Positions 9,631 through 60,291 of a DNA stretch of 64,000 nucleotides are shown here, one piece after another (the first letter of the stretch is position 1; every line of letters starts with the position of its first letter). Position numbers and translations under genes: made by a program. The stretch covers positions 42,210,329 through 42,274,328 of the forward strand of contig NW_023601212.1 in assembly GCF_014898055.3 (NCBI RefSeq), given 5' to 3'. The notes under the pieces are model-generated. The model saw nothing but the letters and a program-made list of their open reading frames with translations, was not told the origin of the DNA and ran no database searches. This stretch comes from Talpa occidentalis. Its lineage: Eukaryota > Chordata > Mammalia > Eulipotyphla > Talpidae.

Positions 9631-11612
9631 GAAGTCCTAGCCAGAGCAATAAGACAAGAGAAAGACATACAAGGAATCCAAATAGGAAAAGAAGAAGTCA
9701 AACTATCACTATTTGCAGATGATATGATAATATACATAGAGAACCCCAATAACTCCATAGAAAAACTAATTCAAATCATCAATCTGTTCAGTAAAGTGGC
9801 AGGATACAATTCAACATGGAAAAGTCAGTAGCCTTCCTATACACAAACAATAAATCTGAAGAGGAAGAAATAAAAAAAAACATCCATTTTATTATCAAAA
9901 CAAAAAAAAATCAAATACTTGGGAATAAATCTAACAAAGAGGTAAAGGACTTATACAAAGAAAAGTATAAAACACTGTTAAAAGAAATAGAAGATGACGC
10001 AAAGAAATGGAAAGACATACCCTACTCATGGATTGGAAGAATAAACATTATTAAATGGCCATCCTACCAAAAGCAATATACAGATTCATTACTATTCCAA
10101 TCAAAATTTCAATGTCATTCTTCAAAGAAATAGAACGATTATTGATGAAATTCATATGGAATCACCAAAAACCCCAAATAGCCAAAGCTCTCCTGAAAAA
10201 AAAAGAAGGGAATGGTGGCATCACACTCCCAGACTTCAAACTATATTACAAAGGATAATCTTCAAAACTGCATGGTATTGGAACAAGAACAGACATAAGA
10301 CCAATGGAATCGAATAGAAAATCCAGAAATAAACCCACAGATTTATGGTCAACTAATCTTTGACAATGGAGCAAAGACTATGCATCGGAGCAAAGAAAGT
10401 TTGTTCAATAAATGGTGCTGGGAAAACTGGGTCGCTACATGCAAAAGAATGAAGCTTGACCACTACCTCACACCATACACAAAAATCAACTCAAAATGAA
10501 TTAAAGATCTAGACATAAGACCTGAAACCATAAAATACATAGAAGGAAATATAGGCGAAACACTACGTGATATGCACATCAAAGACATCTTTACAGACAC
10601 ATCACCCAAAGCAGTGATAGTGAAGGCAAAGATAAACAGCTGGGACTACATCAAATTAAAGAGCTTCTGCACAGCAAAAGAGACAATAACAAAAACAAAG
10701 TAAAAACCCCACCGGCTGGGAGAACATTTTTGCACACAACACTAATGATAAAGGACTGATCACAAAAACCTGCAAAGAGCTAATGAGACTCAACAACAAC
10801 AAAGAAAATAATCCAGTCAAAAAATGGGCAGAAGAGCTAAAAAGAAAATTCTCTGAAAAGGAAATGCAAATGGCCAACAGGCATATGAAAAAATGTTCAA
10901 CATCACTTGTCATCAGGGAAACGCAAATCAAAACTACCATGAGATACCATCTTACACCAGTGAGAATGGCACATATTAAAAAAACTAGCAACAACAAATG
11001 TTGGCGAGGGTGTGGAGAAAAAGGAACTCTCCTGCACTGGTGGTGGGAGTGCAAACTGGTCCAACCACTATGGAGAACTGTGTGTGGAGATTTCTGGACC
11101 TACTAAACATAGAGCTTCCATATGATCCAGCAATTCCACTCCTAGGTATTTACCCAAAGGACACAGAAACAGTAATTCCAAAGAACACCTGCACCCCTAT
11201 GTTTACAGCAGCACTATTTACAATAGCTAAGCTATGGAAACAACCTAAATGCCCAAAAATAGATGACTGGGTCAAGAAGATGTGGTATATATACACCATG
11301 GAATATTACTCAGCATTCAAAAAAGATAAACACATGCAATTTGCAGCAACATGATGGCGCTGGAAGGGATCATGCTCAGCGAAATAAGCCAGAAAGAAAA
11401 AGAAAAATACGGGATGGTCTCACTCATAGCAGGAATCTAGAAAACTTAAGGGACCAGGAAAAAGAATAACTATGAGAAAGAAAATATCAAAATCGACAAA
11501 CAACTATGAACCAGAGACACTCTATGGCGGGTGGGGGCCGGGGAAAGGAGGGCTTGGGGTCAAAATAAGGGGGTTGTAATTGTATGGGGAATATAAAAAA
11601 TAAAATTAAAAA
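9631..11612 (+). mobile_element. L1 element C, 3' part from the RT domain to the A-tail
   Basis: It begins in the ORF2 reverse-transcriptase domain ([17 protein letters not shown] frame, FADD motif) and runs through a frameshifted ORF2 C-terminus to a 3' UTR and A-rich end at about 11,600. It lies head-to-head with L1 A: base 9,631 pairs with 7,229 of L1 A in inverted orientation. The inner part (from about 10,700) matches 55,310-56,200 almost exactly; the outer part is closer to L1 A. Confidence 0.9.
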
Positions 11613-11905
11613 TATATTTAGTATTTTCTCATCTTACATCATCTTCCTAACAGTCATGTATATGCTACAGTTTTACTCTTATTCCAAACATTTGTGCCAC
11701 TAAATTTGTGGTATTTAGTTACAGAAGCACTAGAAAACTAACACCAAATGAACTATTCATTCAAAATAATACATAAATAGTTAACATCAAAAAAAAGGAA
11801 ATTCAGTTTCATTTACTCAGTGTGCATTGGTAAAACACAAATATTACAAACTAGTTAGCTGGCTTGTGCTATGCCAAGGAACATAATTGGGAAATACCAT
11901 CCCCT
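11613..11905. other. Old interspersed-repeat debris
   Basis: At about 11,695-11,745 there is a short piece resembling a MaLR LTR 3' end (compare 59,820-59,870: ttgtggtatttagttacagaa-like). The rest is not recognised. The mirrored copy is at about 55,010-55,300. Confidence 0.45.
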
Positions 11906-11916
11906 GTGATAACTTA

Positions 11917-12191
11917 TTTTTTTTTAAGATTTATTTATTTATGTATACAAGAACGGGGGTACTGGCCAGATGTGCGGTAGGGTGAGAGGTTTCACCAGAG
12001 ACAGATAGGGGAACAGAACAGGAAGACTGATGAAATACACTGCTGAGGGGAGCAGCAGGCATGACAGGAGAGGTCTGCGGTGCCATATGGGATCCTCGCC
12101 GGCCAGCTGGGATGGAACCTGCGTGCAGAGGCTGTGGACAGCTTCACAGCGCTGCGCTCAACTGCCTGCGCCAGCAGGGAAGGCCCCTTCC
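11917..12191 (-). repeat. tRNA-derived SINE with target duplication
   Basis: Antisense SINE with its A-rich tail at the left (ttttttttaagatttatttattt). The 11-bp target duplication gtgataactta is at 11,906-11,916 and 12,192-12,202. It is mirrored at 54,723-54,997. Confidence 0.9.
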
Positions 12192-12417
12192 GTGATAACT
12201 TATATCCCCGTGATCACTTTCTAGAAGTGATCAACAACACCAAGAATTTACTGAAGTTGGCTGTTCTTCGTGCTTCTCTGAAGGAATTACAAGAAAGTAT
12301 TAATGAGAGTTATGAGTCAGAAACATATTATCAGAAGAGCCAACAGAATCCTTCCCCCCCAAAGAATATAAATAGGGCTTTTGCCATTTGCTCAAGAATT
12401 TTTTTACATCATAGTTG

Positions 12418-13539: not shown

Positions 13540-13615
13540 TCTGCTGTATTTAGCACTTATATGAGTTATTGAAGGTAAAAGATGCTCAATAAATAGCTGT
13601 TGGAAGAATGAAGTA
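13540..13615 (+). repeat. MIR-like fragment in the OR 3' flank
   Basis: The ending agatgctcaataaatagctg is typical of a MIR 3' part. A diverged counterpart sits at 60,950-61,025 at the same distance from the third OR gene. The fragment therefore predates the OR duplication. Confidence 0.6.
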
Positions 13616-14657
13616 AAAAAAACAGTGATCTGAATCCAGTAAGAAGTAAATAATAACCAAGATTAGGATAGTGCTGGGCTCTATATTTAGACAGACATCC
13701 CATGTGGTGTTCATGCAGTAAAAGCTGTCTTCCTACTGATGAGGGCTCCCAAGGCCCCTTCAAGTCATTGTTGCGAAAACTGTAGATGAAGGGATTCAGC
13801 ATGGGTGTGACTATAGTGTACATCACTGCAGCAACTGTGTCCTTCTGGGCCATGTGGGAGGATGTGGGGTTGAAATAAATCCCAATTATAGTCCCATAGA
13901 AGAGGGACACCACAGAGAGATGAGAGCCACAGGTGGAGAAAGCTTTCCACTTGCCTTTTGTGGATGGGATCCTCATCACGGCAGCAACGATGAGCATGTA
14001 GGAGACCAGGATGCCCACAAAGGGGAAAAATATTGGCAGGGTACCCACAGTATTTACCATAGCATAATTGAGAAAGGTATCAGAGCAAGCCAGCTTCAGA
14101 ATATCGCTGAGGTCACAGAAGAAGTTAGGAACCTGGTTGTTGGTGCAAAATGAAAGGTGGGTCAGCGATAGTGTGTGAGTCAGGGCATTCACCAAGGCTG
14201 CAGTCCAGGATGCTGACACCAGGAGTATACACAACTGTGGTGTCATAGACATGGCATAATGCAGGGGGTGACAGATGGCAGCATAGCGGTCATAGGCCAT
14301 GGCACCCAGAAGGAAGCTGTCTATGCTGCCAAACAACACAAAAAAGAATGTCTGAGTCAGGCACCCAGCATAAGAGATTCCTTTGTGTCCTGTGATATGG
14401 TTGACCAGCATCTTGGGGATGGTGGTGGTAGTGAAACAAATGTCCATGCAGGCCAGGTTAGCCAGGAAGAAGTACATGGGATTATGAAGTCGAGTATCTG
14501 TGGTGATGGCCAGGATGATGAGTAGGTTCCCCAACCCCGTGACTAGGTACATGCTCAGGAAGAGTATAAACAGTAGCTGTTGTTGCTTGGGGTTCTCTGA
14601 AATACCCAATAGGATGAATTCAGACACCAGGGTGAGGTTTTCCCCCTCTGTGGTCAT
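13566..14657 (-). CDS. Olfactory receptor, family 1-like, left-arm copy with a 3' frameshift
   Basis: A seven-transmembrane odorant receptor of the sensory-neuron membrane, in an intronless coding exon. The first 301 residues are identical to the intact right-arm gene. They include LHNPMYFF (57-64), [15 protein letters not shown] (120-134), [10 protein letters not shown] (238-247) and PMLNPFIYS (285-293). A run of four C at 13,755-13,758 (five G in the right copy at 53,154-53,158) shifts the frame after KG. The normal stop at 13,711-13,713 is missed and the frame runs on to 13,566, giving 363 residues with a foreign, partly hydrophobic tail. In normal frame the gene would span 13,711-14,657. 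The cause is either a real disabling change or a homopolymer sequencing error. A pyrimidine tract and CAG lie just before the ATG. Confidence 0.88.
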   Translation of the reverse strand: MTTEGENLTLVSEFILLGISENPKQQQLLFILFLSMYLVTGLGNLLIILAITTDTRLHNPMYFFLANLACMDICFTTTTIPKMLVNHITGHKGISYAGCLTQTFFFVLFGSIDSFLLGAMAYDRYAAICHPLHYAMSMTPQLCILLVSASWTAALVNALTHTLSLTHLSFCTNNQVPNFFCDLSDILKLACSDTFLNYAMVNTVGTLPIFFPFVGILVSYMLIVAAVMRIPSTKGKWKAFSTCGSHLSVVSLFYGTIIGIYFNPTSSHMAQKDTVAAVMYTIVTPMLNPFIYSFRNNDLKGPWEPSSVGRQLLLHEHHMGCLSKYRAQHYPNLGYYLLLTGFRSLFFLLHSSNSYLLSIFYLQ

Positions 14658-16255: not shown

Positions 16256-16299
<44 letters not shown>

Positions 16300-17546: not shown

Positions 17547-19540
17547 ACTCCCCTCGACAGTGTATTTAAGTGGATCTACCTGAGCTGCTCCCCACTCTGC
17601 CTCTGGTCAGTCCACTGACCACCCGCATCTCTGGCCTACACCCCAGTTCTTTTAAGTGAAAATAAGTAAAATTTTTGAAAACCAATTATATAAATTTCTC
17701 TAGACATTCTATAGCATAAAAGTGAAAATATGTATAAAAGGATGTTGATGATAGACAGAAAGGGGCAAAGAGAGAAAGACAGACAAATGGGAGTGTGGGA
17801 GTGGGGAGATGCACTTGGATGTTTAATTGCTTAAGTTGGGTGGTGAATAGATGCTATATTCCTGCTTGAAATATGGTCTATGCTATTTTGAATGGCTAAA
17901 TCATCACACACTCACACAACACCCACACACACACACCTTTAGGAACTCACAGAGTGACAGAGCTGGATAGCTGCTCAGGTAAATGATAGAGTGCACCCCA
18001 TCCTCTGGTTAAGGTCACTGTGTCCCTGCGGTTCTGACCCTGAAGCTTCAGACACACCTCTGAGTGTCCCACCTCTGCTGAGCTTGCTAAGTTCCCACAG
18101 ACCCCGTGTCAAACCCAGCTCAGCACCTGCACCTGATCTTACTCATTCTCTGCACCCAGTTTGTTGCTTGTCCCACCTACAGCCCCATCACCCAAGCCAG
18201 ATGTGGGCAACAGCCAGCCCTCCTGCCACACTCACTATTATCTTGATGGCTTTACCTGACACTTCTCTTCTTCTGATGCCTCCTTTCCTTCTCAGACACC
18301 ACCTGATACTCATCTTGACATTCTTAGACATAAAATCTGGCCATCCTCTGGCCTTTGGGGGTCCAGGATTGCTCTACTAGTCAAACCTCTACAGTGGCCC
18401 CCACCACAGTGAAATGATCTGCCTTTCCCTTGCTCAAATCCTGCACCAACTTCCTGTCATCCTACTTCTATTACCCAACACTCTTACCTGTTTTGTGTAC
18501 CTGATGCCTTGGCAGGGAATTGACATGCTTCATCTTATTTCATCTTCTAGGACTGGCAGTGCTACCTCCATTACAGGACAAAAAAGGCATGGAGAGATCA
18601 AGAAAAATGGTCATACTACCAAGTATCTCATTGTGTGTGTTGTTGCAAAACCCATAATACTCTGTGATGCAAGACTCAGAAGCTGCAACTATTAGCAAAC
18701 TTACACACACAGTTTTCTTTCATTTGATTTTGATTTTATTTTGCAGACAAGTGAACTGAGTTTGGAGAGGCAAAGTCACTTCCTCAAAGCCACACAGCAG
18801 GTCTGGATGTCCCTATTTGTGGGTTCCTTTCCTTGTATCTGGCCTCCCTCCCTCCCCACTGACCTGTGGAAGTAACCCCTCTGGGTGCAGGCGATGTCTT
18901 AGGGGAAGTGAGTGAGTTCTTGAGGGGAAAGCATCCTCGATTGAGAGGGATGTGGAGGCAGGTCTGGCTTCACAGGAGGATCCTGAGGCTCTGGCAAAGC
19001 CAGATTTATCCTTCATCCGCACTCTTTGGGTGCAGTCCCTCATGTCTTATTAGGGCTCCTGCTAATTGTCTGCTGCACAAGTTGTTCCCACTGATCCTGC
19101 CTCTTTGGAGCAGAGGCTGGGGAATTAGCTCTGGGTTTCCCTCTGCTGATGAACTCTGTATTCTGGGGCCCGGGTCTTTATGGGATCTCCCAGCTCTGCT
19201 AGGCCTGCCCATCACTGGGTACATTGGTGGCTCCTCACTGCTCCGAGCACTGCCCTGCTAATCTTTATTTTAACTTTTAATTGAGGTGAGATTCATATAC
19301 TATAAAATCTACCATTCCTGTTTAATGGTGCTTTGTTCTGAAGTTACATGGTTTATAACATTATAGCCATTTGAGGTGTACAGTTGAATGCTTTGTGATC
19401 TCTACATACTTCATTATAATCACTTCTAAAAGTCTAGTTTCTGTCACCTTAGAATTGACCCCATCTACCTGTTTCACCCACCAGATCCTCCTTCCCCTCT
19501 GGAAATGACCATTTTTCTTGTCAAAATGTGTGGGTTTACT
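17547..19540. repeat. Duplicated non-coding block, copy B
   Basis: Direct-orientation paralogue of 2,504-5,228. It begins inside a SINE that has lost its head where L1 D abuts it. It contains the empty target sites of both solo LTRs (17,730-17,734 and 18,319-18,323). I find no convincing exon; the open frames on both strands are short and not conserved as protein. Confidence 0.85.
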
Positions 19541-19650
19541 TTTGTTTTATTTCTTATCCCTCTGCTCTGTTTCCTTGTGTTCCACATAGAGTGAAATCAT
19601 ATATTGTTTTCTCTCTTTCTGAGATCTTTCACGTAGCATAATACCCTCAG
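19262..19650 (-). repeat. Old L1 3' region
   Basis: Antisense old L1 3' UTR and ORF2 end. The stretch near 19,590-19,650 resembles the tail region that encodes the ISQ/KEK segment in younger copies. It continues the fragment seen at 4,970-5,222. Confidence 0.55.
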
Positions 19651-22475: not shown

Positions 22476-22489
22476 AAATTATTCTAATG

Positions 22490-22737
22490 GGGACTCCCCC
22501 ATTAGAGGTTGAGCACTGGGCTGCGAAGCTGCCCGCAGCCTCTGCAGCACTGGTTCAATCCCCAGCGGGCCGGCGGGGGACTTCTCCTGTCTTGCCCGCT
22601 GCTCCCCTCAGCAGTGTGTTTCATAAGTCTGCCTGTTCTGCTCCCCGCTCTGGCTCTGGTGAATTCTCTCACCCTCCCGTGCTTCTGACTGTACCCAACT
22701 CTTGTATAAAATAAATATATAAATAAATCTTTTTAAA
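22490..22737 (+). repeat. tRNA-derived SINE with target duplication, shorter allele
   Basis: SINE with ggttgagcactgggctgcg head, ggttcaatcccc B-box-like motif and an (aaat)n tail. The 14-bp target duplication aaattattctaatg is at 22,476-22,489 and 22,738-22,751. Compared with the mirrored copy (44,158-44,423) it lacks a 17-bp internal segment just after the gcggggg motif. Confidence 0.9.
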
Positions 22738-22751
22738 AAATTATTCTAATG

Positions 22752-24243: not shown

Positions 24244-27200
24244 CTATATTCCTGTTATAAGTGAAATCATCCAATATTTTTCTTTTTCCATCCGACTTAT
24301 TTCACTGAGCATAATTCCTTCTAGCTCCATCCACGTTGCTGCAAATGGCACGAGTTTATCTTTTTTTTGATTGCTGAGTAATATTCCACTGTATGTATAT
24401 ATATATATATATATATATACCACATCTTCTTGATCCAGTCATCTGTTTTTGGGCATTTGGGTTGTTTCCAGGTTTTACCTGTTGTAAATAGTGCTGCAGT
24501 AAACATAGGTGTACAGGTGCTCTTTTGAATCACTGTTTTTGTGTCCTTTGGGTAGATCCCTAGTAGTGGAATTGCCGGATCTTATGGTAGCTCCATTTTT
24601 AGTAGACCGAGGAACCTCCAGACAGCTTTCCAAAATGGTTGGACCAGTTTTCACTCTCACCAGCAATGTAGGAGAGTTCCTTTTTCACCGCATCCTCACC
24701 AGCATTTGTTGTTGCTTGTTTTTTTCATATGTGCCATTCTTACTTGTGTAAGGTGGTGTCTCAGTGTGATTTTGATTTGCATTTCCCTGATGATAAGGGA
24801 TGTTGAACATTTTTTCACATACCTGTTGGCCATTTGCATTTCCTCTTTGGATAAATGTCTTTTGAGTTCTTCTGCCCATTTCTTGACTGGATTGTTTATT
24901 TTGTTATTGTTGAGCCCTGAGAGTTCTTTGCATATCATTGTGACCAGTTCCTTATCAATTGGATGGAGTGCAAAGATTTTTTCCCAATCAGAGAGGTGTC
25001 TCTCTGTTTTGGTTAATGTCTCTTTTGCTGTGCAGAAGCTTTTCAGTTTGATGTAATCCCAGGTGTTTATCTTTGCCTTCACTATCACTGCTTTGGGTCA
25101 TGAGTCTTTAAAGGTGTTTCTGAGATGTATGTCTTGTAGTGTTTTACCTATATTTTCTTCTATATATTTTATGGTTTCACGTCTTATGTCCAGTTCTCTT
25201 ATCCATTTTTGAGTTGATTTTTGTGCATGGTGAGAGGTAGTGGTCTAGTTTCATTTTTTTGCATGTGGAAGTCCAGTTTTCCCAGCACCATTTATTGAAC
25301 ACACTGGCCGTGTTCCATTGCATATTCTTTGCTCCTTTGTCAAAGATTAGTTGTTCATATAAGTGCGGCTTTATTTCTGGGCTCTCTATTTGGTTCCATT
25401 AGTCTGTGTGTCTGTTTTTGTTCCAATACCAAACTGTTTTAATTATTATGGCTTTGTAGTAATAGCTTGAAGTTTGGAAGTGTGATACCTCCTTTCTCCT
25501 TTGTTTTCATCAGTAGGGCTTTGGCTATTCGTAGTTTTTGGTGGTTCCATATGAATTTCACCAGTATTTGTTCTATTTCTTTGAAGAATGTCTTTGGGAT
25601 TTTTATTGGAATAGCATTGAATCTGTATATTGCTTTTGGGAGGATGGCCATTTTAATAATGTTGATTCTTCCAATCCATGAGCAGGGGATGGCTTTCCAT
25701 TTCTTTGTGTTTTCTTCAATTTTTTTTAACAGTGATTTATAATTTTCTTTGTATAGGTCTGTCACCTCTTTTGTTAGGTTTATTCGCAAGTATTTGACTG
25801 TTTTGGTTTCAGTTGTGAAAGGGATGTTTTTTTTTTTTAATTTCTTCTTCTTCCAGTTGATTGTTTGTGTAAAGGAAGGCTACTGATTTTTGTGTGTTGG
25901 TTTTGTATCCTGCTACATTACTGAACTGGTTGATTATTTTGAGTAGTTTTTCTGTGGAGTTTTTAGGGCTCTCCATGTATAGTGTCATATCATCTGCAAA
26001 TAGTGATAATTTTTCTTCTTCTTTCCCTATCTGGATTCCTTGTATGTCTTTCTCTTGTCTTATTGCCCTAGCTAGGACCTCCAGTATTATATTGAAGAGC
26101 AGTGGTAAGAGAGGACATCCTTGTCTTGTTCCTGATCTTAGAGGAAAGGCCTTCAGCTTTTCACTATTGAGAATAATGTTGGCAGTGGGTTTGTCATATA
26201 TGGCTTTTATCACGTTAAGGTATGTTCCTTCTATCCCGAGAATTTCAAGGGCCTTCATCATAAATGGATGTTGGACTTTGTCGAACGCTTCCTCAGCATC
26301 TATGGATATTATCATATGGTTTTGGTTTTTCTTTTTGTTGATGTGTTGGATTACACTTATCGATTTTCGTATGCTGAACCATCCTTGTGCCCTGGGATGA
26401 ATCCCACTTGATCGTGGTATACTATCCCTTTGATGCATTGTTGGATTCTGTTGGCAAGGATTTTGTTGAGGATTTTTGCATCAGTGTTCCTTAGGGAGAT
26501 TGGGCTGTAATTTTCTTTTTTTGTCCTGTCTTTGTTTGGTTTTGGTATTAATGTTGGTTTCATAGAACGTATTTGGTAGTATTCCTTCTTTTTCAATTTT
26601 TTGAGAGAGTTTGTGTAAGATAGGCACTAATTCATAGCTGAACATTTGGTAGAATTCATTTTTGAAGCCATCTGGGCCTGTGCTTTTGTTTTTGGGGAGT
26701 GCTTTGATTACTGCCTCAATTTCACTGCTTGTAATTGGTCTATTTAGTTCCTCTATTTCTTCTTTGTCCAGCTTTGGATGATTGTATCGTTCTAGGAATT
26801 TTCCATCTCTTCTAGGTTGTTGAATTTGTTTGCATTTAAGTGTTCATAGTAATCTCTGATTATTCTTTTGATTTCTACTGAGTCTGTTGTGATTTCTCCT
26901 CTCATTTGTAATCTTATTTATGTGCTTTTTTCCCATTTTTTCTTTGTGAGCCTGGCTAAAGGTTTGTCTATTTTGTTTATTTTTTCAAAGATCCAACTTT
27001 TGGTTTCATTGATCTTTTGTATTTTTTTTTAATTTCCAATTCATTTATTTCTGCCTTGATTTTTATTATTTCCTTTCTTCTACTGGCTTTAAGGTTTTTT
27101 TGTTGTTCTCTTTCTAGCTCTTTGAGATGTGAGATTAGGTTGTTTCTTTGAGTTCTTTCTTGTTTCTTGATGTGAGCCTGTATTGCTATATATTTTCCTC

Positions 27201-28779
27201 TTATTACTGCTTTTGCTGTGTGCCATACATTCTGGAAAGTGGTGTCCTCCTTGCCGTTCAACTCAATGTATTTTTTTTTTTGTCTCTTGCACTTATTTTT
27301 ATTTTTTATTTTGTTAATTAAATAATAAATTTTATTTTTATATTCCCCATACAATTGCAACCCCCCCATTCTGACCCCAATCCCTCCCCTCCCGCCCCCC
27401 AACCCCCCAAAAAGTGTCTCTGGTTCATAGTTTTTTGTTGATTTTGATTTTCACTTTCGTAATAGTTATTCATTTTCCTGGTCCCTTATTTAAGTTTTCT
27501 AGATTCCTGCTATGAGTGAGACCATCCGGTATTTTTCTTTTTCTTTCTGGCTTATTTCGCTGAGCATGATCCCTTCCAGCGCCATCCATGTTGCTGCAAA
27601 TTGCATGTGTTTATCTGTTTTGAATGCTGAGTAATATTCCATGGTGTATATGGACCACATCTTCTTGATCCAGTCATCTATTTTTGGGCATTTGGGTTGT
27701 TTCCAAAGCTTAGCTATTGTAAACAGTGCTGCTATAAACATATGGGTGCAGGTGTTCTTTGGAATTGATGTTTCTGTGTCCTTTGGGTAAATACCTAGGA
27801 GTGGAATTGCTGGATCATATGGAAGCTCTATGTTTAGTAGGTCCAGAAATCTCCACACAGCTCTCCATAGTGGTTGGACCAGTTTGCACTCCCACCAACA
27901 GTGCAGAAGAGTTCCTTTTTCTCCACACCCTCGCCAACATTTGTTGTTGCTAGTTTCAATGTATTTTTTGATTTCTTCTTTGATCCCCTATTTAGTCCAG
28001 TGGTCTTGCATTAGTGTGATTTCAATCTCCATGAAGTGGGTGGGTTCCTTATTTTCTTTTCATGATTTATTTGTAGCTTGATGCCTTTATGATGGGAGAA
28101 GATAGTTGGAATGATTTTGATCTTCCTGTATCTGTTGATGTTTGTCTTGTAGCCCAGTATGTGATCGATTCTGGAGAATGATCCATGCGCACTTGAGAAA
28201 AATGTGTACTTGGATTTTTGTGGGTGCAGTGTCCTATAGATGTCTGTTAAGTCCATGAGTTCTATGTCTTTATTTAGGGCTCTAGTGTCTTTGTTTATTT
28301 TTTGTCTCGTTGGTCTGTCCATTGGTGAGAGTGGGGTGTGGAAGTCTCCCACTCTCTATGTACTTTCTTTAATGTCTGTTTTCAGAGCTGATAATAATTG
28401 CCTGATATATTTTGGTGCCCCTTCATTTGGTGAGCATATGTTGATGAGTGTTATATCTTCCTGATGTATTGTCCCCTTGATCATAATGTAGTGTCCATCT
28501 ATGTCTCTTTTTACCTTTCTTAATTTGAAGTCTATTTCATCTGATATAAATATGGCTGTTTCTGCCTTCTTTTTTGGTCCATTTGCTTGTAGGATTGTTT
28601 TCCAGCCTTTTAGTTTCAGTCTATGTTTATCTTTTGTGGTTAAATGTGTTTCCTGGAGACAGCAGAAGGTTGGATTTTGTTTTTTAATCCAGCCTGCTTA
28701 CTCTGTGTCTTTTTATTGATGAGTTTAATCCATTTACATTTAGAGTTAATATTGATATGTTGGCATCTGTATTGGCCAT
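24244..28779 (-). pseudogene. L1 E ORF2, disrupted and interrupted
   Basis: The start at 28,779 gives MANTDANISILTLNVNG. An extra base in the early GVAGWIK-like segment causes a stop near residue 35. Endonuclease segments continue to about 27,970. The L1 fragment at 27,277-27,955 then splits the gene. The RT domain is at 26,440-25,830 with the FADD motif near 25,990, and the C-terminus ends at 24,244. After removing the insert the length is close to 1,280 codons. Confidence 0.88.
27277..27955 (-). mobile_element. Nested 5'-truncated L1 fragment in L1 E ORF2
   Basis: The 14-bp target duplication tcaatgtatttttt is at 27,263-27,276 and 27,956-27,969. The insert holds the last ~120 codons of ORF2, the 3' UTR and an A-rich tail. 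Beyond the usual A-tail there are about 15 extra bases (gcaagagac side) before the T-run, a possible tiny 3' transduction. It is same-sense with its host and younger than it. Confidence 0.92.
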
Positions 28780-29845: not shown

Positions 29846-31325
29846 CTCTTTGGATTGCTGCTTTAGGGGTGTTGGAAACTCTTTACCAGACTGAGACCAG
29901 CCCTGGTAGGCCAAAACTCCACCAGGGTGTTGATGCTGTGTTGCTTGGCACTGTCCCTTACAGTTCCCTCCCTCTGTATTTACTCAGTTCCAGCATGGAG
30001 TCAGCTAGCTGGTGATTTTGTTCTGGTCACGTGGTGGCACCATAGACCTGTACTTGCTGACCTGTGCTTTTTCCCAGTGGTTCTCCGAGAAATGGAGGGG
30101 GGGCATAGGGCAGCGCCTCAACACAGGGGCTCTTAATCAAGCTGGGTGCTGTGTCTGCCCCAGGTTCACCTGGTGCTGCGCCCGCAGCTGTGTGATTTCT
30201 GTGCCCTGAATTCTGTACTCTAGGTCTCAGTTCCAGGGCTATCAGATCCAAAACACTGGCTGTCACCCTGTGCAGTGCCCACAGCTATGGCGCGTCCCAC
30301 TCCTTGGATTCTGCACCTGGCTCTCAGTTCCATAATGGGGTCTTGCTCCATGCCTTATTTCCCTCCTTACCCCAGTTTGCATGGCTCACCCTCTCTCAGA
30401 ACCTGAGGGTGTTTTGGGGATCCCTGGTTTCCTGCTATCAGGATTTGGTGATTTTTTTTTCCTGGTCGCTGGGTGGCAGCAGTGATCTTTATTAGTGTCC
30501 TTCCAGTACTGTTTTTTTTTCCCATGGGTCTTGGGGAACAGAGTGTAAGTGGCGTGGAGCGCCTTAATGGCATGGGGGTGTCATGTCTGCCTTGTGCCCC
30601 ACCATCGTAGGGTTCCCACGCCCCAAATTTTGTGCCCCTGGTCTCAGTTCCAAAGCCCTCAGGTCCAGGATGTGGGCTGTAGCCCAGTTCAGTGTCCGCA
30701 GAAATGACGCCTTTTGCATCCCACTCCCAAGTCCGGATGCCTGATTTCTGATTACTCAGTGAGGGACATTCACCTCAATGAGAGCTCCCGTGCTTCTCCC
30801 TGCAAGTCTAGGTCGCAGTCATGGGGACCTGGGCAGCCGGGAGCCCAGAGCCTTGATCCACATAAGATTTTCAAGAGCACTGCTTTTCCACACAAGCTTA
30901 CTGGCTGACCTTGGGCTATTTGTAGGTCTCAGGAGTCCTTGTTCTCCTCTAATGGCGCCTGGAGCCATTTGTTCACCTCCGCAGGGATTCCTGCACTGTT
31001 CCCCACAGTTCCAGTTCACAGGGTGCGGTGCCTGCAGTAGTTACTTTCCACTCACAGTCCCTCTCAATGTGTAGTTTGTTCTTATTTGTTGTTTTAGTTT
31101 GTTGTTGTTGTTGTTATTGTTGTTTTCCTCCATTCTGTTGGTCAGAGAGTGCCAACTTTATGGGAACTCTATTGTCTTTTTTTAATATTGCCTTTCTAAC
31201 TGGTATAAAATGATATCTCATTGTGGTTCTAATTTGCATTTTCCTGATTATTGGTGATATTAACATCTTTTCATTTTTCATTTGACCATTTGTATATCTT
31301 CTTTGAGAAATGTCTATACAGATCC

Positions 31326-32823
31326 TGTTACAGGGCAGGGAGAGGTGCACTCCAGACCCCCCAAAACCTGCCTGCTCTAAATGGGTTCTGCCATCCCGTC
31401 ACATCAACACAAAACATATGAGACTTTAATGTAAAGGAACTTTAATACAACTAGGAAACAATACAGGAAAGGCAAAGAATCTAGTTTCTAAATCAAGCAC
31501 CCAAAGTTACCCGTCCCCTCTTGGGTAAAACTCCATCCAAATGGGACTGGCCCAGAGCAAGGCCCCAAAGCCTGCCACAAGTCTAAAGCATCTTCGAGTG
31601 GGGACCTACAGAAAAGGGTCAGAAACAACCAGACAAGCCCTGAAGGAAAAGAGCAAAATCAAAATCAACATAAAAGCTGCCATTGTCACCTCCCCATGGG
31701 TCTCTCACCCACATCTGTGTCACCCAGTCTATAACCAAAAGGCAAGTATAGTTTCTTCACATGTCTCTCCACTCCATGTGCCTTCTCCAGGTCTCCTTCT
31801 GAGTCTCCATCCTGCTTCCTTCCTTCTTCAGTCTCCTCTGCAGCTGCTTCTCTCTCTGCTCAGCTCCACCCTCCTTATGGGGCAGGAAATCTGGAACCTT
31901 CCCCTTTCCTGGGGACCACCCTATTACAATCCCCCCTTTTAATTTTTATTTCACCATATCTATGGTGGCACAGATCTCAGGGTGTGGTCTTAGGAGAGAG
32001 TCTTTTTTTCAGGGTTACAATGTGTGTAAGAGAAGCAACAATTAGTTAGCAGCTTTGTCTATGAATGTCCAGTATGACAGTTTTCCATTACTGGAAAATA
32101 GTCCATTATCCAAGCCAAAAGAAAAAAATCTGGAGCATTAGTTAAAACAAGACAGCAAATATACATCAAAATCACAGGGAAAAAATCTTAAAATTGGTTG
32201 AACTGTTTTTCCAGGAATGGAGGACTTTTGCTTTCCACAATGAACAGTACCTGGAGGGACTGGTTTTCTTTCACACTGGAGCCCAGTAAAATTTTCGTCT
32301 GAGACTGCATCCCAGCATCCATGTATTCGATCTTCATCACCACGGAAATGGTGGCAAGAAGTGAAAGGGGGGAATTGCAAGGGGGAAAAGGATGTCCTAA
32401 AGCTAATTCCATACAGGCTCCACCCCCACTCCAGACCAAAGCCATCAGGACATTGGGAAAGACAAATCCCATCACCACCAAAGGGAAGGTTGCTGGAACC
32501 TGAGGGTGGAGGTAAGCAGCCAGGTTTGGTATAAAAACCAGACACATGGGCTTTGGGGGGGGGGTTTCCCTTTTTGGCTTTCCACCAGCTCAGAGCGCTC
32601 AGCCAGCTCTCAGGTCGGCGGGTCGGGTAGGACACATTAAAGACTTTATTCCCCTATTTTCTCCCTGAGTTGTACATTTCCTCATTTCTCTTTCCCTTGT
32701 AAATAAACCTTTTATTAACCTTTTGTGTGTGCCTGTAGTGGAGTATTAATAAGTCTCTTTTAAGTGCGCAGGTGAGGACCCACAGCCAGGCAACCCATTT
32801 TATATCGGGGCTGCTCTGTAACA
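31326..32823. mobile_element. Retroviral LTR-type insertion, 1.5 kb, composite
   Basis: Perfect 8-bp inverted ends TGTTACAG...CTGTAACA and a 4-bp target duplication ATCC (31,322-31,325 and 32,824-32,827), inserted into an old antisense L1. The right part looks like a + strand LTR: TATA box tataaaa at about 32,529, aataaa near 32,702, and a terminal CA. The left part looks like a - strand LTR ending TGTAACA at 31,326, with a pyrimidine run caatccccccttttaa near 31,928-31,943 that would be its polypurine tract. No intact viral gene is present; an open frame on the - strand at 32,188-32,547 is not identified. Confidence 0.7.
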
Positions 32824-33548
32824 ATCCTTTGCCCATTTTCAAATTGGGTTATGTGACCTTTTACTATTGAATTGTAAGAGAGTTTCTCAAAATAATTTTG
32901 CTTATGAATTCCTTATCAGATATATGGTTTTCAGTTTCACATGTTGTCTTTTCACTTAGTCATTGGTGAGGAGGGTTTTTTTTTTTGTTTGCACTAGAGA
33001 GTTCATAGAAAGAAAATGGTAAACTCAGGACTTTAACCTTCTTTAAAACCATGATCTCTGAATCACTGAGCCTCCAAAAGAAACTTAAAAAAAGTGCAGT
33101 TCTGAAAATCTAAGAGACATATCTGGTGCCACTTCATAATTAGAACAAAATCAAAAGCTGCTGATTGTTGGAAGACAGGGTCTCCAAGATGCCCTTTGGA
33201 AACTAAGGGATGGCTTCACAAAGTCAGGGACCTCATGATACCTTCTGGAACTGAGTTAATACAGAGGGAGGGAACCTAAGGGGCTGCACCCAGCAACAAA
33301 GCTACAGCATCAATATCCTTGTGGAGTTTTGGCATAGCAGTGTTGGATTCAGTCTGGTAGCCAGTTCCTGACATCCCTGAAGGAGTACCCTAAAGAGATG
33401 CCCACCAGCACCAATGGCACAATGTACCAACACATAGAACAAATTACAAAACAAACAACAGGGAGAAAGAAAAATACATATAACCAAGCAAGCCCACAAG
33501 GACACATCACAAAAAGAAAATCAGCCACTAGAATTCAACAATAATGAC

Positions 33549-33914
33549 ATGGAAGAAATTCTCTGCCTGCCAGATAGAGAATTCAAAAACATCATGATTA
33601 AAAAACATAAAGAATATGAAAAGGAAAAGAATGAAATGAGAAAAATAATTAATGAACTGAAGAATGAAATAGAGTCCCTAAAGAAGGAAATGAAAGAAAT
33701 GCAGGGGATCAAAAGATTATGGGAGGAGCTAAAGAACTCTGGGGAAAGCGACAAAAACAGAAATGATGAAATGGAAGAGTGGATCAGTACTCTGGAAGAT
33801 ACAGAAATAAAAATAACCAAAAAAGAAAAGGAAAGAGAAGTACAAAGGAAAAAGAAAGAAGAAACACTTCAAGAACTATCTGACAACATGAGGAAAGGAA
33901 ATATAGAGTTGTAA
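33549..33914 (+). pseudogene. L1 F ORF1 coiled-coil fragment
   Basis: Open frame of heptad-rich Lys/Glu sequence (EEIL, KEYEKEKNEMRKIINELKNE, KEMQGIKRLWEELKNSGES). It matches the coiled coil of L1 E ORF1. The frame is lost on both sides. Confidence 0.8.
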
Positions 33915-34559
33915 GAATTGCAGAAGATGAAGAGAGAAACCAAGGAACTGAGAATCTATTCAGCAGATAACCAAAGACAACTTCCCAAGCATGAAAAGTG
34001 AGGTGAATGTAGACATATAAGAAGTGAGAAAAACACCAAATTAATACAATGAAAAGAAAACTACAGAAATACACATAATAGTACAGCTTTCATGAGTCCA
34101 AGACAAGGAAAAAAAATAATGAAGCTGACAAGGGGCAAAAACAGATAACCTACGAAGGAAAAACAATCAAGCTGATATCAGACTTCTCTGAAGAAACACT
34201 ACAGTCAAGAAGATAATGAAGTAACATATTCAACAAACTCCAAGACAGCAAATGCCAGTCAAGAATACTTCACCCTGCAAAACTCCCTGTCTTCTATGAA
34301 GAAAAAATAAGACTTTTGCAGAAAACAAAAACTCCAGAAATTCATTATAACTAAATCCCAACTCCAAAAAATTCTACAAGAAGTCCTAAAACCAAAACCA
34401 ACTGAGGAATCACTAAGAACAATAGAATAAGGCAAGGAATAAAAATCACAAAAAGACAAACAAAATGGCAAATACAGACACCAACATATAAATATTAACT
34501 CTAAATGCAAAAAGACTAAATTCATCAATAAAAAGACAAGGAGTAGCAGGCTGGATTAA

Positions 34560-34837
34560 CATCTAATCCTGTTCTTTGATCAAATTTTGGCAAATTTTCA
34601 TGTTTCTTCTTCTTGTTAAAGTTAACATAATTTTATTTTAGAACAAAATTTTTTATGACTATGAACTCCAAATTCACTAGTACTAAGATTTCATTTTTCA
34701 TTACTTTTTCATTACCAGGAAGTTTGTTTCTTTAATATTCTGCCATATACCACCACATCACTTTGTAATTCAAAAGTTTTAATATGCTATTTTGCTTCAA
34801 TGATTTAATAAATAGAAAAGAGGGCAAAAAAAAAAAA
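34560..34837 (+). mobile_element. Retrocopied 3' UTR-like insert in L1 F
   Basis: The L1 ORF2 sequence is interrupted after ggctggattaa and resumes with ccatccttctgct near 34,856. The insert is AT-rich non-L1 sequence with an aataaa signal at 34,807-34,812 and a poly(A) run at 34,826-34,837, the spacing expected of a reverse-transcribed mRNA 3' end. I do not recognise its source gene. Only its first ~95 bp are repeated in the right arm (35,248-35,345). Confidence 0.7.
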
Positions 34838-35006
34838 CAAAACAAAAACAAAAGCCATCCTTCTGCTATCTCCAGGAACACATTTAACTACAAAAGATAA
34901 ACATAGACTGAAAGTAACAGGTTGGAAAATAATCCTACAGGCAAATGGATCAAAAAAGAAGACAGGACCAGCTGTGCTTATAACAGATTAAATGATCTTC
35001 AAATTT

Positions 35007-35240
35007 AAAAAAGGGAAAAAGAGACACAGATGACACTACATCATGATCAAGGGGACAATACATCGGGAAGCTTTAACACCCATCAACATATGCTCACCAA
35101 ATGAAGGGGCACCAAAATATATCAGGCAATTATTATCAGCTCTGAAAACAGACATTAAAGAAAGTGGGTGTTAAAGCTTCCCGATGTATTGTCCCCTTGA
35201 TCATGATGTAGTGTCATCTGTGTCTCTTTTTCCCTTTTTT
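35007..35240. repeat. Innermost inverted repeat and 82-bp loop (fold point)
   Basis: Bases 35,007-35,082 are the reverse complement of 35,165-35,240 with no mismatch that I found; paired positions sum to 70,247. The loop is 35,083-35,164, ordinary L1 endonuclease-domain sequence. The next seven bases (35,241-35,247) do not pair, after which pairing restarts against 34,653. Confidence 0.93.
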
Positions 35241-37052
35241 GATCCAGAAAAATTTTGTTCTAAAATAAAATTATGTTAACTTTAACAAGAAGAAGAAACA
35301 TGAAAATTTGCCAAAATTTGATCAAAGAACAGGATTAGATGTTAATCCAGCCTGCTACTCCTTGTCTTTTTATTGATGAATTTAGTCTTTTTGCATTTAG
35401 AGTTAATATTTATATGTTGGTGTCTGTATTTGCCATTTTGTTTGTCTTTTTGTGATTTTTATTCCTTGCCTTATTCTATTGTTCTTAGTGATTCCTCAGT
35501 TGGTTTTGGTTTTAGGACTTCTTGTAGAATTTTTTGGAGTTGGGATTTAGTTATAATGAATTTCTGGAGTTTTTGTTTTCTGCAAAAGTCTTATTTTTTC
35601 TTCATAGAAGACAGGGAGTTTTGCAGGGTGAAGATTCTTGACTGGCATTTGCATCTTGGAGTTTGTTGAATATGTTACTTCATTATCTTCTTGACTGTAG
35701 TGTTTCTTCAGAGAAGTCTGATATCAGCTTGATTGTTTTTCCTTCGTAGGTTATCTGTTTTTGCCCCTTGTCAGCTTCATTATTTTTTTTCCTTGTCTTG
35801 GACTCATGAAAGCTGTACTATTATGTGTATTTCTGTAGTTTTCTTTTCATTGTATTAATTTTCTACTTTTCTCACCGCATATGTCAACTGGAACTGTGGG
35901 GAACAGTGCAGGAATCCCTGCGGAGGTGAACAAATGGCTCCAGGCGCCATTAGAGGAGAACAAGGACTCCTGAGACCTACAAATAGCCCAAGGTCAGCCA
36001 GTAAGCTTGTGTGGAAAAGCAGTGCTCTTGAAAATCTTATGTGGATCAAGGCTCTGGGCTCCCGGCTGCCCAGGTCCCCATGACTGCGACCTAGACTTGC
36101 AGGGAGAAGCACGGGAGCTCTCATTGAGGTGAATGTCCCTCACTGAGTAATCAGAAATCAGGCATCCGGACTTGGGAGTGGGATGCAAAAGGCGTCATTT
36201 CTGCGGACACTGAACTGGGCTACAGCCCACATCCTGGACCTGAGGGCTTTGGAACTGAGACCAGGGGCACAAAATTTGGGGCGTGGGAACCCTACGATGG
36301 TGGGGCACAAGGCAGACATGACACCCCCATGCCATTAAGGCGCTCCCACGCCACTTACACTCTGTTCCCCAAGACCCATGGGAAAAAAAACAGTACTGGA
36401 AGGACACTAATAAAGATCACTGCTGCCACCCAGCGACCAGGAAAAAAAAATCACCAAATCCTGATAGCAGGAAACCAGGGATCCCCAAAACACCCTCAGG
36501 TTCTGAGAGAGGGTGAGCCATGCAAACTGGGGTAAGGAGGGAAATAAGGCATGGAGCAAGACCCCATTATGGAACTGAGAGCCAGGTGCAGAATCCAAGG
36601 AGTGGGACGCGCCATAGCTGTGGGCACTGCACAGGGTGACAGCCAGTGTTTTGGATCTGATAGCCTGGAACTGACCTAGAGTACAGAATTCAGGGCACAG
36701 AAATCACACAGCTGCGGGCGCAGCACCAGGTGAACCTGGGGCAGACACAGCACCCAGCTTGATTAAGAGCCCCTGTGTTGAGGCGCTGCCCTATGCCCCC
36801 CCTCCATTTCTCGGAGAACCACTGGGAAAAAGCACAGGTCAGCAAGTACAGGTCTATGGTGCCACCACGTGACCAGAACAAATCACCAGCTAGCTGACTC
36901 CATGCTGGAACTGAGTAAATACAGAGGGAGGGAACTGTAAGGGACAGTGCCAAGCAACACAGCATCAACACCCTGGTGGAGTTTTGGCCTACCAGGGCTG
37001 GTCTCAGTCTGGTAAAGAGTTTCCAACACCCCTAAAGCAGCAATCCAAAGAG

Positions 37053-44143: not shown

Positions 44144-44157
44144 GCATTAGAATAATT

Positions 44158-44423
44158 TTTTAAAAAGATTTATTTATATATTTATTTTATACAAGAGTTG
44201 GGTACAGTCAGAAGCACGGGAGGGTGAGAGAATTCACCAGAGCCAGAGCGGGGAGCAGAACAGGCAGACTTATGAAACACACTGCTGAGGGGAGCAGCGG
44301 GCAAGACAGGAGAAGTCTGCGTGTCATGTGGGACCCCCGCCGGCCCGCTGGGGATTGAACCAGTGCTGCAGAGGCTGCGGGCAGCTTCGCAGCCCAGTGC
44401 TCAACCTCTAATGGGGGAGTCCC
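44158..44423 (-). repeat. tRNA-derived SINE, longer copy
   Basis: Mirror of 22,490-22,737, but 18 bp longer. It keeps the segment reading ctgcgtgtcatgtggga at about 44,317-44,333 that SINEs elsewhere (60,385-60,405) also carry, so the left copy has lost it. Target duplications at 44,144-44,157 and 44,424-44,437. Confidence 0.9.
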
Positions 44424-44437
44424 CATTAGAATAATTT

Positions 44438-46665: not shown

Positions 46666-46680
46666 AAGAAAAGTAGGAAA

Positions 46681-50616: not shown

Positions 50617-50655
<39 letters not shown>

Positions 50656-52253: not shown

Positions 52254-52254
52254 G

Positions 52255-53202
52255 ATGACCACAGAGGGGGAAAACCTCACCCTGGTGTCTGAATTCATCC
52301 TATTGGGTATTTCAGAGAACCCCAAGCAACAACAGCTACTGTTTATACTCTTCCTGAGCATGTACCTAGTCACGGGGTTGGGGAACCTACTCATCATCCT
52401 GGCCATCACCACAGATACTCGACTTCATAATCCCATGTACTTCTTCCTGGCTAACCTGGCCTGCATGGACATTTGTTTCACTACCACCACCATCCCCAAG
52501 ATGCTGGTCAACCATATCACAGGACACAAAGGAATCTCTTATGCTGGGTGCCTGACTCAGACATTCTTTTTTGTGTTGTTTGGCAGCATAGACAGCTTCC
52601 TTCTGGGTGCCATGGCCTATGACCGCTATGCTGCCATCTGTCACCCCCTGCATTATGCCATGTCTATGACACCACAGTTGTGTATACTCCTGGTGTCAGC
52701 ATCCTGGACTGCAGCCTTGGTGAATGCCCTGACTCACACACTATCGCTGACCCACCTTTCATTTTGCACCAACAACCAGGTTCCTAACTTCTTCTGTGAC
52801 CTCAGCGATATTCTGAAGCTGGCTTGCTCTGATACCTTTCTCAATTATGCTATGGTAAATACTGTGGGTACCCTGCCAATATTTTTCCCCTTTGTGGGCA
52901 TCCTGGTCTCCTACATGCTCATCGTTGCTGCCGTGATGAGGATCCCATCCACAAAAGGCAAGTGGAAAGCTTTCTCCACCTGTGGCTCTCATCTCTCTGT
53001 GGTGTCCCTCTTCTATGGGACTATAATTGGGATTTATTTCAACCCCACATCCTCCCACATGGCCCAGAAGGACACAGTTGCTGCAGTGATGTACACTATA
53101 GTCACACCCATGCTGAATCCCTTCATCTACAGTTTTCGCAACAATGACTTGAAGGGGGCCTTGGGAGCCCTCATCAGTAGGAAGACAGCTTTTACTGCAT
53201 GA
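52255..53202 (+). CDS. Olfactory receptor, family 1-like, intact right-arm copy
   Basis: A 315-codon intronless G protein-coupled odorant receptor expected in olfactory sensory neuron cilia, coupling to G-olf. An N-glycosylation site NLT lies at residue 7, GN in TM1 (43-44), [13 protein letters not shown] at 57-69, the conserved Cys at 99 and 181, [15 protein letters not shown] at 120-134, SY at 219-220, [10 protein letters not shown] at 238-247 and PMLNPFIYS at 285-293. Length and motifs fit an intact class II OR. The KGKWKAF and [11 protein letters not shown] segments suggest family 1, but I cannot assign a subfamily. An L1 ends about 200 bp upstream. The left-arm copy differs by the single G lost from 53,154-53,158. 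Confidence 0.95.
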   Translation: MTTEGENLTLVSEFILLGISENPKQQQLLFILFLSMYLVTGLGNLLIILAITTDTRLHNPMYFFLANLACMDICFTTTTIPKMLVNHITGHKGISYAGCLTQTFFFVLFGSIDSFLLGAMAYDRYAAICHPLHYAMSMTPQLCILLVSASWTAALVNALTHTLSLTHLSFCTNNQVPNFFCDLSDILKLACSDTFLNYAMVNTVGTLPIFFPFVGILVSYMLIVAAVMRIPSTKGKWKAFSTCGSHLSVVSLFYGTIIGIYFNPTSSHMAQKDTVAAVMYTIVTPMLNPFIYSFRNNDLKGALGALISRKTAFTA

Positions 53203-53639
53203 ACACCACATGGGATGTCTGTCTAAATATAGAGCCCAGCACTATCCTAATCTTGGTTATTATTTACTTCTTACTGGATTCAGATCACTGTTTTTTTTAC
53301 TTCATTCTTCCAACAGCTATTTATTGAGCATCTTTTACCTTCAATAACTCATATAAGTGCTAAATACAGCAGAGAGCATAGAAAACCTTGATGTTGTGGT
53401 ATTGACACTGAAGTCATAGGAACTTAAAATGATTAATAGTACATGCCTAGAAAACCAGTTAGGATTTAAGTTCCAGTTGTCTTAAGGATCAGATGCCAGT
53501 CCTCCTAATGATAGGAATCGCAAACAATGTTCTATTCTACACAGGTTCTTTAATGTATTTAATTTAATTTGTATCTATTAACGTGCAGTGCTTGTTTCCT
53601 TGAACTGCAATGTCTTTATTAATGTCACTATGTGCTGCA

Positions 53640-54495: not shown

Positions 54496-54722
54496 CAACT
54501 ATGATGTAAAAAAATTCTTGAGCAAATGGCAAAAGCCCTATTTATATTCTTTGGGGGGGAAAGGATTCTGTTGGCTCTTCTGATAATATGTTTCTGACTC
54601 ATAACTCTCATTAATACTTTCTTGTAATTCCTTCAGAGAAGCACGAAGAACAGCCAACTTCAGTAAATTCTTGGTGTTGTTGATCACTTCTAGAAAGTGA
54701 TCACGGGGATATAAGTTATCAC

Positions 54723-54997
54723 GGAAGGGGCCTTCCCTGCTGGCGCAGGCAGTTGAGCGCAGCGCTGTGAAGCTGTCCACAGCCTCTGCACGCAGGTTCC
54801 ATCCCAGCTGGCCGGCGAGGATCCCATATGGCACCGCAGACCTCTCCTGTCATGCCTGCTGCTCCCCTCAGCAGTGTATTTCATCAGTCTTCCTGTTCTG
54901 TTCCCCTATCTGTCTCTGGTGAAACCTCTCACCCTACCGCACATCTGGCCAGTACCCCCGTTCTTGTATACATAAATAAATAAATCTTAAAAAAAAA
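54723..54997 (+). repeat. tRNA-derived SINE, right-arm copy
   Basis: Mirror of 11,917-12,191, with target duplications taagttatcac at 54,712-54,722 and 54,998-55,008. Confidence 0.9.
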
Positions 54998-55309
54998 TAA
55001 GTTATCACAGGGGATGGTATTTCCCAATTATGTTCCTTGGCATAGCACAAGCCAGCTAACTAGTTTGTAATATTTGTGTTTTACCAATGCACACTGAGTA
55101 AATGAAACTGAATTTCCTTTTTTTTGATGTTAACTATTTATGTATTATTTTGAATGAATAGTTCATTTGGTGTTAGTTTTCTAGTGCTTCTGTAACTAAA
55201 TACCACAAATTTAGTGGCACAAATGTTTGGAATAAGAGTAAAACTGTAGCATATACATGACTGTTAGGAAGATGATGTAAGATGAGAAAATACTAAATAT
55301 ATTTTTAAT

Positions 55310-57105
55310 TTTATTTTTTATATTCCCCATACAATTACAACCCCCTTATTTTGACCCCAAGCCCTCCTTTCCCCGGCCCCCACCCGCCATAGAGTGTCTC
55401 TGGTTCATAGTTGTTTGTCGATTTTGATATTTTCTTTCTCATAGTTATTCTTTTTCCTGGTCCCTTAAGTTTTCTAGATTCCTGCTATGAGTGAGACCAT
55501 CCCGTATTTTTCTTTTTCTTTCTGGCTTATTTCGCTGAGCATGATCCCTTCCAGCGCCATCATGTTGCTGCAAATTGCATGTGTTTATCTTTTTTGAATG
55601 CTGAGTAATATTCCATGGTGTATATATACCACATCTTCTTGACCCAGTCATCTATTTTTGGGCATTTAGGTTGTTTCCATAGCTTAGCTATTGTAAATAG
55701 TGCTGCTGTAAACATAGGGGTGCAGGTGTTCTTTGGAATTACTGTTTCTGTGTCCTTTGGGTAAATACCTAGGAGTGGAATTGCTGGATCATATGGAAGC
55801 TCTATGTTTAGTAGGTCCAGAAATCTCCACACACAGTTCTCCATAGTGGTTGGACCAGTTTGCACTCCCACCACCAGTGCAGGAGAGTTCCTTTTTCTCC
55901 ACACCCTCGCCAACATTTGTTGTTGCTAGTTTTTTTAATATGTGCCATTCTCACTGGTGTAAGATGGTATCTCATGGTAGTTTTGATTTGCGTTTCCCTG
56001 ATGACAAGTGATGTTGAACATTTTTTCATATGCCTGTTGGCCATTTGCATTTCCTTTTCAGAGAATTTTCTTTTTAGCTCTTCTGCCCATTTTTTGACTG
56101 GATTATTTTCTTTGTTGTTGTTGAGTCTCATTAGCTCTTTGCAGGTTTTTGTGATCAGTCCTTTATCATTAGTGTTGTGTGCAAAAATGTTCTCCCAGTC
56201 GGTGGGGTTTTTCTTTGTTTTGGTTATTGTCTCTTTTGCTGTGCAGAAGCTCTTTAATTTGATGTAGTCCCAGCTGTTTATCTTTGCCTTCACTATCACT
56301 GCTTTGGGTGATGTGTCTGTAAAGATGTCTTTGATGTGCATATCACGTAGTGTTTCGCCTATATTTCCTTCTATGTATTTTATGGTTTCAGGTCTTATGT
56401 CTAGATCTTTAATTCATTTTGAGTTGATTTTTGTGTATGGTGTGAGGTAGTGGTCAAGCTTCATTCTTTTGCATTTAGCTACCCAGTTTTCCCAGCACCA
56501 TTTATTGAACAAACTTTCTTTGCTCCAATGCATATTCGTTGCTCCTTTGTCAAAGATTGGTTGACATAAATCTGTGGGTTTATTTCTGGATTTTCTATTT
56601 GGTTCCATTGGTCTGTGTGTCTGTTCTAGTTCCAGTACCATGCAGTTTTGATGATTATGGCTTTGTAGTAAAGTTTGAAGTCTGGAGTGTGATCCCTCCA
56701 TTCCCTTCTTTTTTTTTCAGGAGAGCTTTGGCTATTCGGGGTTTTTTGTGGTTCCATATAAATTTCATCAATAATTGCTCTATTCTTTGAAGAATGACAT
56801 TGAAATTTTGATTGGAATAGCATTGAATCTGTGTATTGCTTTTGGTAGGATGGCCATTTTAATAATGTTTATTCTTCCAATCCATGAGCAGGGGATGTCT
56901 TTCCATTTCATTGTGTCTTCTTCTATTTCCTTTAACAGTGTTTTATAGTTTTCTTTGTATAGGTCCTTTACCTCTTTTGTTAGAGTTATTCCCAAGTATT
57001 TGATTTTTTTTGTTTCGATAGTAAAAGGGATTTTTTTATATTTATTCTTCTTCAGATTTATTGTTGGTGTATAGGAAGGCTACTGATTTTTGCGTGTTGA
57101 TTTTG
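55310..57105 (-). mobile_element. L1 element C counterpart, truncated in the RT domain
   Basis: Antisense 3' UTR, then ORF2 C-terminus to the end of the RT domain. Inside 56,200 it matches 10,700-11,612 almost exactly. Outside it is about 92% identical to the left arm and carries different diagnostic bases (ggttccattggtctgtgtg near 56,602). At 57,105 it is fused to another L1 3' end. Confidence 0.88.
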
Positions 57106-60290: not shown

Positions 60291-60291
60291 T

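Follow-up and report, generated by a model that had tools for sequence, protein, structure and literature searches.

Origin of a 46-kb palindrome with an olfactory receptor gene in each arm in the mole Talpa occidentalis: a probable case of fold-back replication

How does an olfactory receptor (OR) gene come to stand twice, in opposite orientations, in the two arms of a near-perfect palindrome? The locus that raises this question lies in the Iberian mole, Talpa occidentalis (assembly GCF_014898055.3, contig NW_023601212.1, positions 42,210,329 to 42,274,328 of the forward strand), and the whole analysis rests on one assembled sequence of this 64,000-nucleotide stretch, here called the window. 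A first-pass annotation, made from the letters of the window, had described a palindrome of about 46 kb with arms longer than 20 kb, and this description was confirmed both by self-BLAST and by base-by-base alignment. We lean toward the interpretation that a single fold-back replication event in an OR cluster recently gave rise to this 46-kb inverted duplication, which is centred on an 82-bp loop. What the sequence itself shows is a pair of almost identical arms about a tight centre, three one-sided losses, all of them in the second arm (arm B) near the centre, and an outer switch from one L1 element to another; the fold-back, skip and capture steps that would connect them are what we infer from these features, rather than features that can be seen directly. 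The rearrangement is of a known kind, while its joints are unusually readable.

Self-BLAST of the window revealed one dominant inverted match, pairing 9,808–31,030 with 57,103–35,873 over 21,252 columns at 99.50% identity, and base-by-base alignment traced 49 of the 56 mismatches in this match to its first kilobase, where one L1 is aligned with another. The main arms, 10,439–31,016 and the reverse complement of 56,474–35,887, extend for about 20.6 kb and are 99.97% alike in substitutions, with only six substituted sites (10,691; 10,715; 13,511; 25,969; 27,218; 27,417). A second alignment gave 11 substitutions in the main arm; the five extra ones were rejected as a matter of gap placement at 30,227–30,236, where the first alignment puts two indels, and six were kept. 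The arms are further distinguished by 20 gap events (16 of 1 bp, three of 2 bp and one of 17 bp). When 15 isolated one-base differences were examined, 13 were found to alter the length of a run of at least two equal bases and two were not; scored by the longer allele, 11 fall in runs of at least three, two in runs of two and two in no run. These run-length differences look like residual consensus error. In view of its length and identity, the arm match as a whole cannot in our judgement be accounted for by chance. From the alignments, arm A (10,439–35,082, plus strand, 24.6 kb), which includes three blocks that arm B lacks, is read as the original copy, and arm B (35,165–56,474, minus strand, 21.3 kb) as an inverted copy derived from it. 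Arm B is made up of four pieces that are collinear with A; together these would give it a length of 21,301 bases, and 21,310 are observed.

The centre of the palindrome is much tighter than it first appeared. The first-pass annotation had taken some 4.9 kb between the arms as unique sequence, but two further inverted stems extend the symmetry to a loop of 82 bp, and the 4.9-kb centre is made up mostly of sequence from arm A with no counterpart in arm B. The outer of these two stems pairs 34,036–34,653 with 35,863–35,248. The innermost is 76 bp long, and its A side (35,007–35,082, plus strand) is the exact complement of its B side (35,165–35,240, minus strand, read from 35,240 down to 35,165); as a single strand this stem has a predicted folding energy of −94.7 kcal/mol, versus a mean of −25.1 for shuffled sequences, with 0 of 200 shuffles as good. 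The loop at the true centre (35,083–35,164, plus strand) is continuous with the L1 on the A side, as established by alignment. Also by alignment, three plus-strand blocks of A are absent from B: 55 bp at 34,952–35,006, 292 bp at 34,654–34,945 and 2,996 bp at 31,028–34,023, the last having left a scar at 35,854–35,892 in arm B (minus strand). All three losses begin no more than 1.1 kb from the centre, for which the odds are about 9e-5 under a model of three independent, evenly placed losses. The pieces of A that were retained in B keep A's own order and orientation, which is the pattern that a single strand would leave by skipping forward along a single template.

The joints left by these losses, and that of the central fold, differ in the amount of sequence shared, with 1, 7, 0–1 and 3 bp in common at the centre and at the 55-, 292- and 2,996-bp skips, respectively. 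At the 55-bp skip the shared sequence is the 7-bp repeat AAAAAAG, while the 292-bp skip is accompanied by one base added in B. The GTG shared at the 2,996-bp skip lies within a patchwork of about 30 bp, short pieces of which match either side, and four of the five neighbouring bases beyond the GTG are unlike A. The central fold shares a single T, and this 1-bp overlap is weak support for priming by pairing; in a related L1, GTGGG occurs some 10 bp beyond this point. Two inserts were noted in this region. Inside the 2,996-bp block unique to arm A lies a lone element resembling a long terminal repeat (31,326–32,823; 1,498 bp), with TG...CA ends and a 4-base duplication, ATCC, on either side, and the central L1 is broken at 34,559–34,844 by some 285 bp of inserted sequence, A-rich at one end, of which the first 95 bp are present in arm B too.

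The same joints point to the polarity of the copies. The stretch around the 55-bp loss is kept in three other L1 copies of the window, the 292-bp loss takes away L1 sequence at its right end (34,844–34,945), and the 2,996-bp loss ends in an L1 ORF1 stretch that runs on unbroken in A. Arm A thus has uninterrupted L1 wherever B shows a loss, and so represents the unbroken state, with B as the derived copy. On the A side of the loop, the L1 runs without interruption up to 35,165 and there turns into its own reverse complement, and the right flank (57,106–64,000) contained no L1 ORF2 stretch able to be the remainder of this central L1.

At its outer edge, the palindrome ends in a change of L1 copy. 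The L1 at the edge of arm A occupies 9,628–11,607 (plus strand; self-BLAST and alignment), and the L1 at the edge of arm B (55,294–57,105, minus strand) is read from the alignment as a hybrid, common to arm A up to about 56,199–56,474 and belonging to another L1 copy beyond. Over 9,808–10,438 the arms are 92.5% identical (578/625), or about 7.5% apart, and each of the two is 93–94% identical to a third L1 in the left flank, whereas over 10,716–11,600 the arms are identical at 885 of 885 positions. Such a step, from 92.5% identity outside the edge to full identity inside it, marks a switch between two L1 copies, which was made between their aligned positions; the 7.5% difference beyond the edge is the distance between these two copies. 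Another abrupt L1-to-L1 joint was seen nearby, where a minus-strand L1 (5,241–9,632) meets the outer L1 of arm A head to head at 9,628–9,632. The first-pass annotation, whose suggestion of an inverted duplication is supported, had overlooked the loop of 82 bp, the losses from one arm, the polarity of the arms, with A original and B copied, and the switch from L1 to L1.

All of these joints would be explained most simply if synthesis had folded back, skipped forward several times in series and finally been captured by a second L1. In this account, a DNA end within the L1, close to position 35,165, would have folded back and primed leftward copying of arm A, and synthesis would have skipped forward by 55, 292 and 2,996 bp within the first 4 kb of template before some 20.6 kb was copied without large error. 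In the L1 near 10.4–10.7 kb, the new strand would then have paired with a second L1 copy and so been joined to the right flank; the sequence formerly between the fold and this second L1 would probably have been lost, and the outcome would be a second, inverted copy of one OR gene. The model of microhomology-mediated break-induced replication (MMBIR) envisages low-processivity synthesis with many switches, followed by processive copying (PMC2621351), and fold-back priming at breaks is backed by work in yeast (PMC10622511). We propose, more tentatively, that this is a natural germline palindrome with a tight and uneroded centre, in which a single fold-back event in a wild mammal has been recorded in full, from the turn-round in L1 through three forward skips of low-processivity synthesis and 20 kb of clean copying to capture by a second L1.

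Several observations weigh against a fold-back origin of this kind. The single base shared at the centre falls below the 2–8 bp of inverted homology found at 13 of 21 sequenced human fold-back loop junctions, three of the 21 having about 300 bp (PMC3907307), and one skip, that of 292 bp, shares just 0–1 bp. The outer switch can be placed only within limits, as 252 identical bases (10,439–10,690) are followed by three differences in 25 bp; that two L1s 7.5% apart would share 252 identical bases by chance is very unlikely (about 3e-9). The outer L1s have no usable target-site duplication that would tell which is the original: none was seen at A, and at B just a pair of AT-rich matches of 7 bases. 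The three losses could also have arisen by later deletion, and a single assembled sequence underlies everything, which leaves room for an assembly fault.

How old might the palindrome be? The arms, by their likeness in substitutions, support the suggestion of the first-pass annotation that this is a very recent inverted duplication in an OR cluster. Four substitutions lie away from the edges, in about 20.9 kb, and in the absence of conversion these would correspond to about 44 kyr (12–111) at 2.2e-9 substitutions per site per year, or 21 kyr (6–54) at 4.5e-9, neither rate being a mole measurement. On the same condition, this suggests an age of tens of thousands of years, which would be young enough for the locus to be polymorphic. 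A few later changes can be assigned to one arm or the other. A 17-bp piece of a repeat element is absent in A, but B and related copies at other places in the window have it in slightly different form, which indicates a loss in A. Among the three substitutions located in L1, that at 25,969 looks derived in A, that at 27,417 looks derived in B and that at 27,218 is ambiguous. Either each arm has changed since copying or the arms would represent two haplotypes. The repeat element belongs to a set of dispersed elements of about 270 bp (11,915–12,186, 22,483–22,741, 44,155–44,430 and 60,286–60,559) with a GGTTCAATCCC-like motif, on which we take them to be possibly a tRNA-derived short interspersed element; the arm-A copy at 22.5 kb is the one that has lost 17 bp.

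The chief alternative to fold-back with serial skips is that a simple fold-back, or a fusion of sister ends, gave a near-perfect palindrome and that the three losses in arm B came later, as stabilizing deletions. This has precedent, in that most of the inverted junctions of one transgene concatemer had asymmetric deletions, which are believed to stabilize the palindrome (PMC8701086), and secondary rearrangement of palindromes has been proposed to lengthen the spacer (PMC10766186); moreover, a foldback junction between sister ends requires no skipping polymerase (PMC12807874). However, all three losses are collinear and in one arm, and they do not span the centre, where the 82-bp loop and the exact 76-bp stem survive. 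Revision by breakage at the centre is expected to remove the centre of a palindrome, so that the survival of an exact centre argues against later deletion, which we consider unlikely. Our doubts are stronger about an assembly fault, in which a chimeric fold-back read, an overlooked adapter or the misplacement of a haplotype would have given a false inverted copy. Artificial palindromes arising from amplification, and in principle from missed adapters, have been described for long reads (PMC6218980), and the predominance of run-length changes among the isolated one-base arm differences (13 of 15) is typical of consensus noise. Nevertheless, three collinear losses with scarred joints are not what a fold-back read would produce, and neither the 17-bp difference inside a repeat element nor differing flanks joined via a second L1 would be expected from it; changes on both arms (25,969 in A and 27,417 in B) also speak against it, although two haplotypes could give the same result.

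The remaining alternative, an older palindrome whose arms have been kept alike by gene conversion, as in the palindromes of sex chromosomes, seems to us improbable, although six substitutions in 20.6 kb suit active conversion as well as they do youth. The inner stems are cut off from the main arms by the one-sided losses of 0.3–3 kb, and over their 683 aligned bp they contain one substitution and two one-base gaps, so that identity does not clearly drop towards the centre. In addition, the three large one-sided losses and the 17-bp loss in A have stayed unconverted, and the outer edge is a change of L1 copy, with no gradient. The two sides of the isolated inner stems resemble each other about as closely as the main arms do, so that long-term gene conversion, which the first-pass annotation had offered as its second explanation, is not needed, though it keeps a small share of probability. 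An apparent identity of only 98.1% for the stem at 34,009–34,653 in BLAST had been considered as support for conversion, but closer alignment put most of the differences in the joint scar, and the argument was dropped. The gene-converted palindromes of the mammalian X and Y resemble this one in having long, gene-bearing arms that are more than 99% alike, but the present palindrome carries an OR gene, gives no sign that conversion is needed, and is probably autosomal, judging from the position of OR1F1, which we take to be autosomal in human (16p). The arms of gene-converted ampliconic palindromes have been homogenized over long times and are common to several species, and the inner stems here give no sign of such homogenization.

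Set beside known products of replication and repair, the palindrome appears to work like a fold-back inverted duplication, but it is not one of the human disease class. Like the human fold-back inverted duplications of Hermetz et al. 2014 (PMC3907307), it has inverted copies flanking a short single-copy loop, here 82 bp with an exact 76-bp stem, although most of the human spacers are a few kb long. One of the human cases has a hybrid L1 at the loop junction, whereas here the hybrid L1 is at the outer edge. The human cases adjoin terminal deletions, translocations or rings, while the present duplication is internal to the chromosome sequence, with both flanks continuing in the window and an outer joint that runs from L1 to L1. 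MMBIR, as described in 2009 (PMC2621351), resembles the present case in its complex product, with inverted duplication, losses and short sequences shared at the joints; several joints are also combined in one product, at the centre, the three skips and the outer L1 switch. However, where MMBIR joints would be expected to carry 2–5 bp of microhomology, only two of the four short joints share at least 2 bp (7 and 3 bp), and the outer joint uses long L1 homology. The foldbacks of breakage-replication/fusion (PMC12807874) have a foldback joint between nearby parallel breakpoints, here 82 bp apart, and that route would likewise yield such a joint, but they are described in cancers, congenital disease and cell models, and the ordered forward skips of this palindrome are better explained by a single template than by the joining of fragments. 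Inverted triplication by origin-dependent inverted-repeat amplification (ODIRA; Brewer et al. 2024, PMC10766186) shares the palindromic junction and the secondary loss nearby. A third, direct copy of the ODIRA type was absent from the 6.9-kb right flank (57,106–64,000), where the best match to arm A is an OR paralogue, 83.7% identical over 1.1 kb. Among the open-licence papers listed in literature searches on moles and palindromes, we found no prior report of this locus.

The genes carried by the arms bear out the claim of the first-pass annotation that they agree up to a one-base frameshift. The arm-B gene (52,255–53,202, plus strand) is intact and encodes 315 amino acids, with a match to the OR seven-transmembrane profile PF13853 of 184.7 bits against a cut-off of 27. 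The arm-A gene (13,566–14,657, minus strand) has an open reading frame of 363 amino acids; the first 301 residues of the arm-B protein are identical in both, and past residue 301 the frame of arm A shifts at a run of C residues at 13,754, where C4 stands against C5. Because 13 of the 15 one-base arm differences are run-length changes, this frameshift should not be taken as real; it may be consensus noise, and the arm-A gene should thus not yet be read as a pseudogene. A third OR gene, intact and also of 315 amino acids, lies in the right flank (61,116–62,063, minus strand) and is a diverged paralogue, with 83.7% DNA identity to the arm genes. In a tree of 18 OR proteins hand-picked from 120 listed, Talpa P0002 is the grouping partner of the arm OR, but support is modest (83/76), and the tree therefore neither dates nor tests the duplication. 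Structure matches of the OR were only to consensus ORs and other receptors and were of no use, and a scan against Rfam gave no matches at gathering scores. Elsewhere in the window, 2,496–5,253 and 17,548–19,558 form a collinear direct repeat of three pieces with 86–94% identity, and the copy in the left flank contains two additional stretches.

If the palindrome did arise as proposed, OR repertoires can expand through L1-assisted fold-back copying, which would be a likely route for an OR gene to gain a second, inverted copy, and Iberian moles may still be polymorphic at this locus. The fold-back models that we met draw on work in patients, tumours, cell models and yeast. With a young example from nature, all of whose joints are readable in one sequence, a wild population could be used to test the order in which skips and joins took place.

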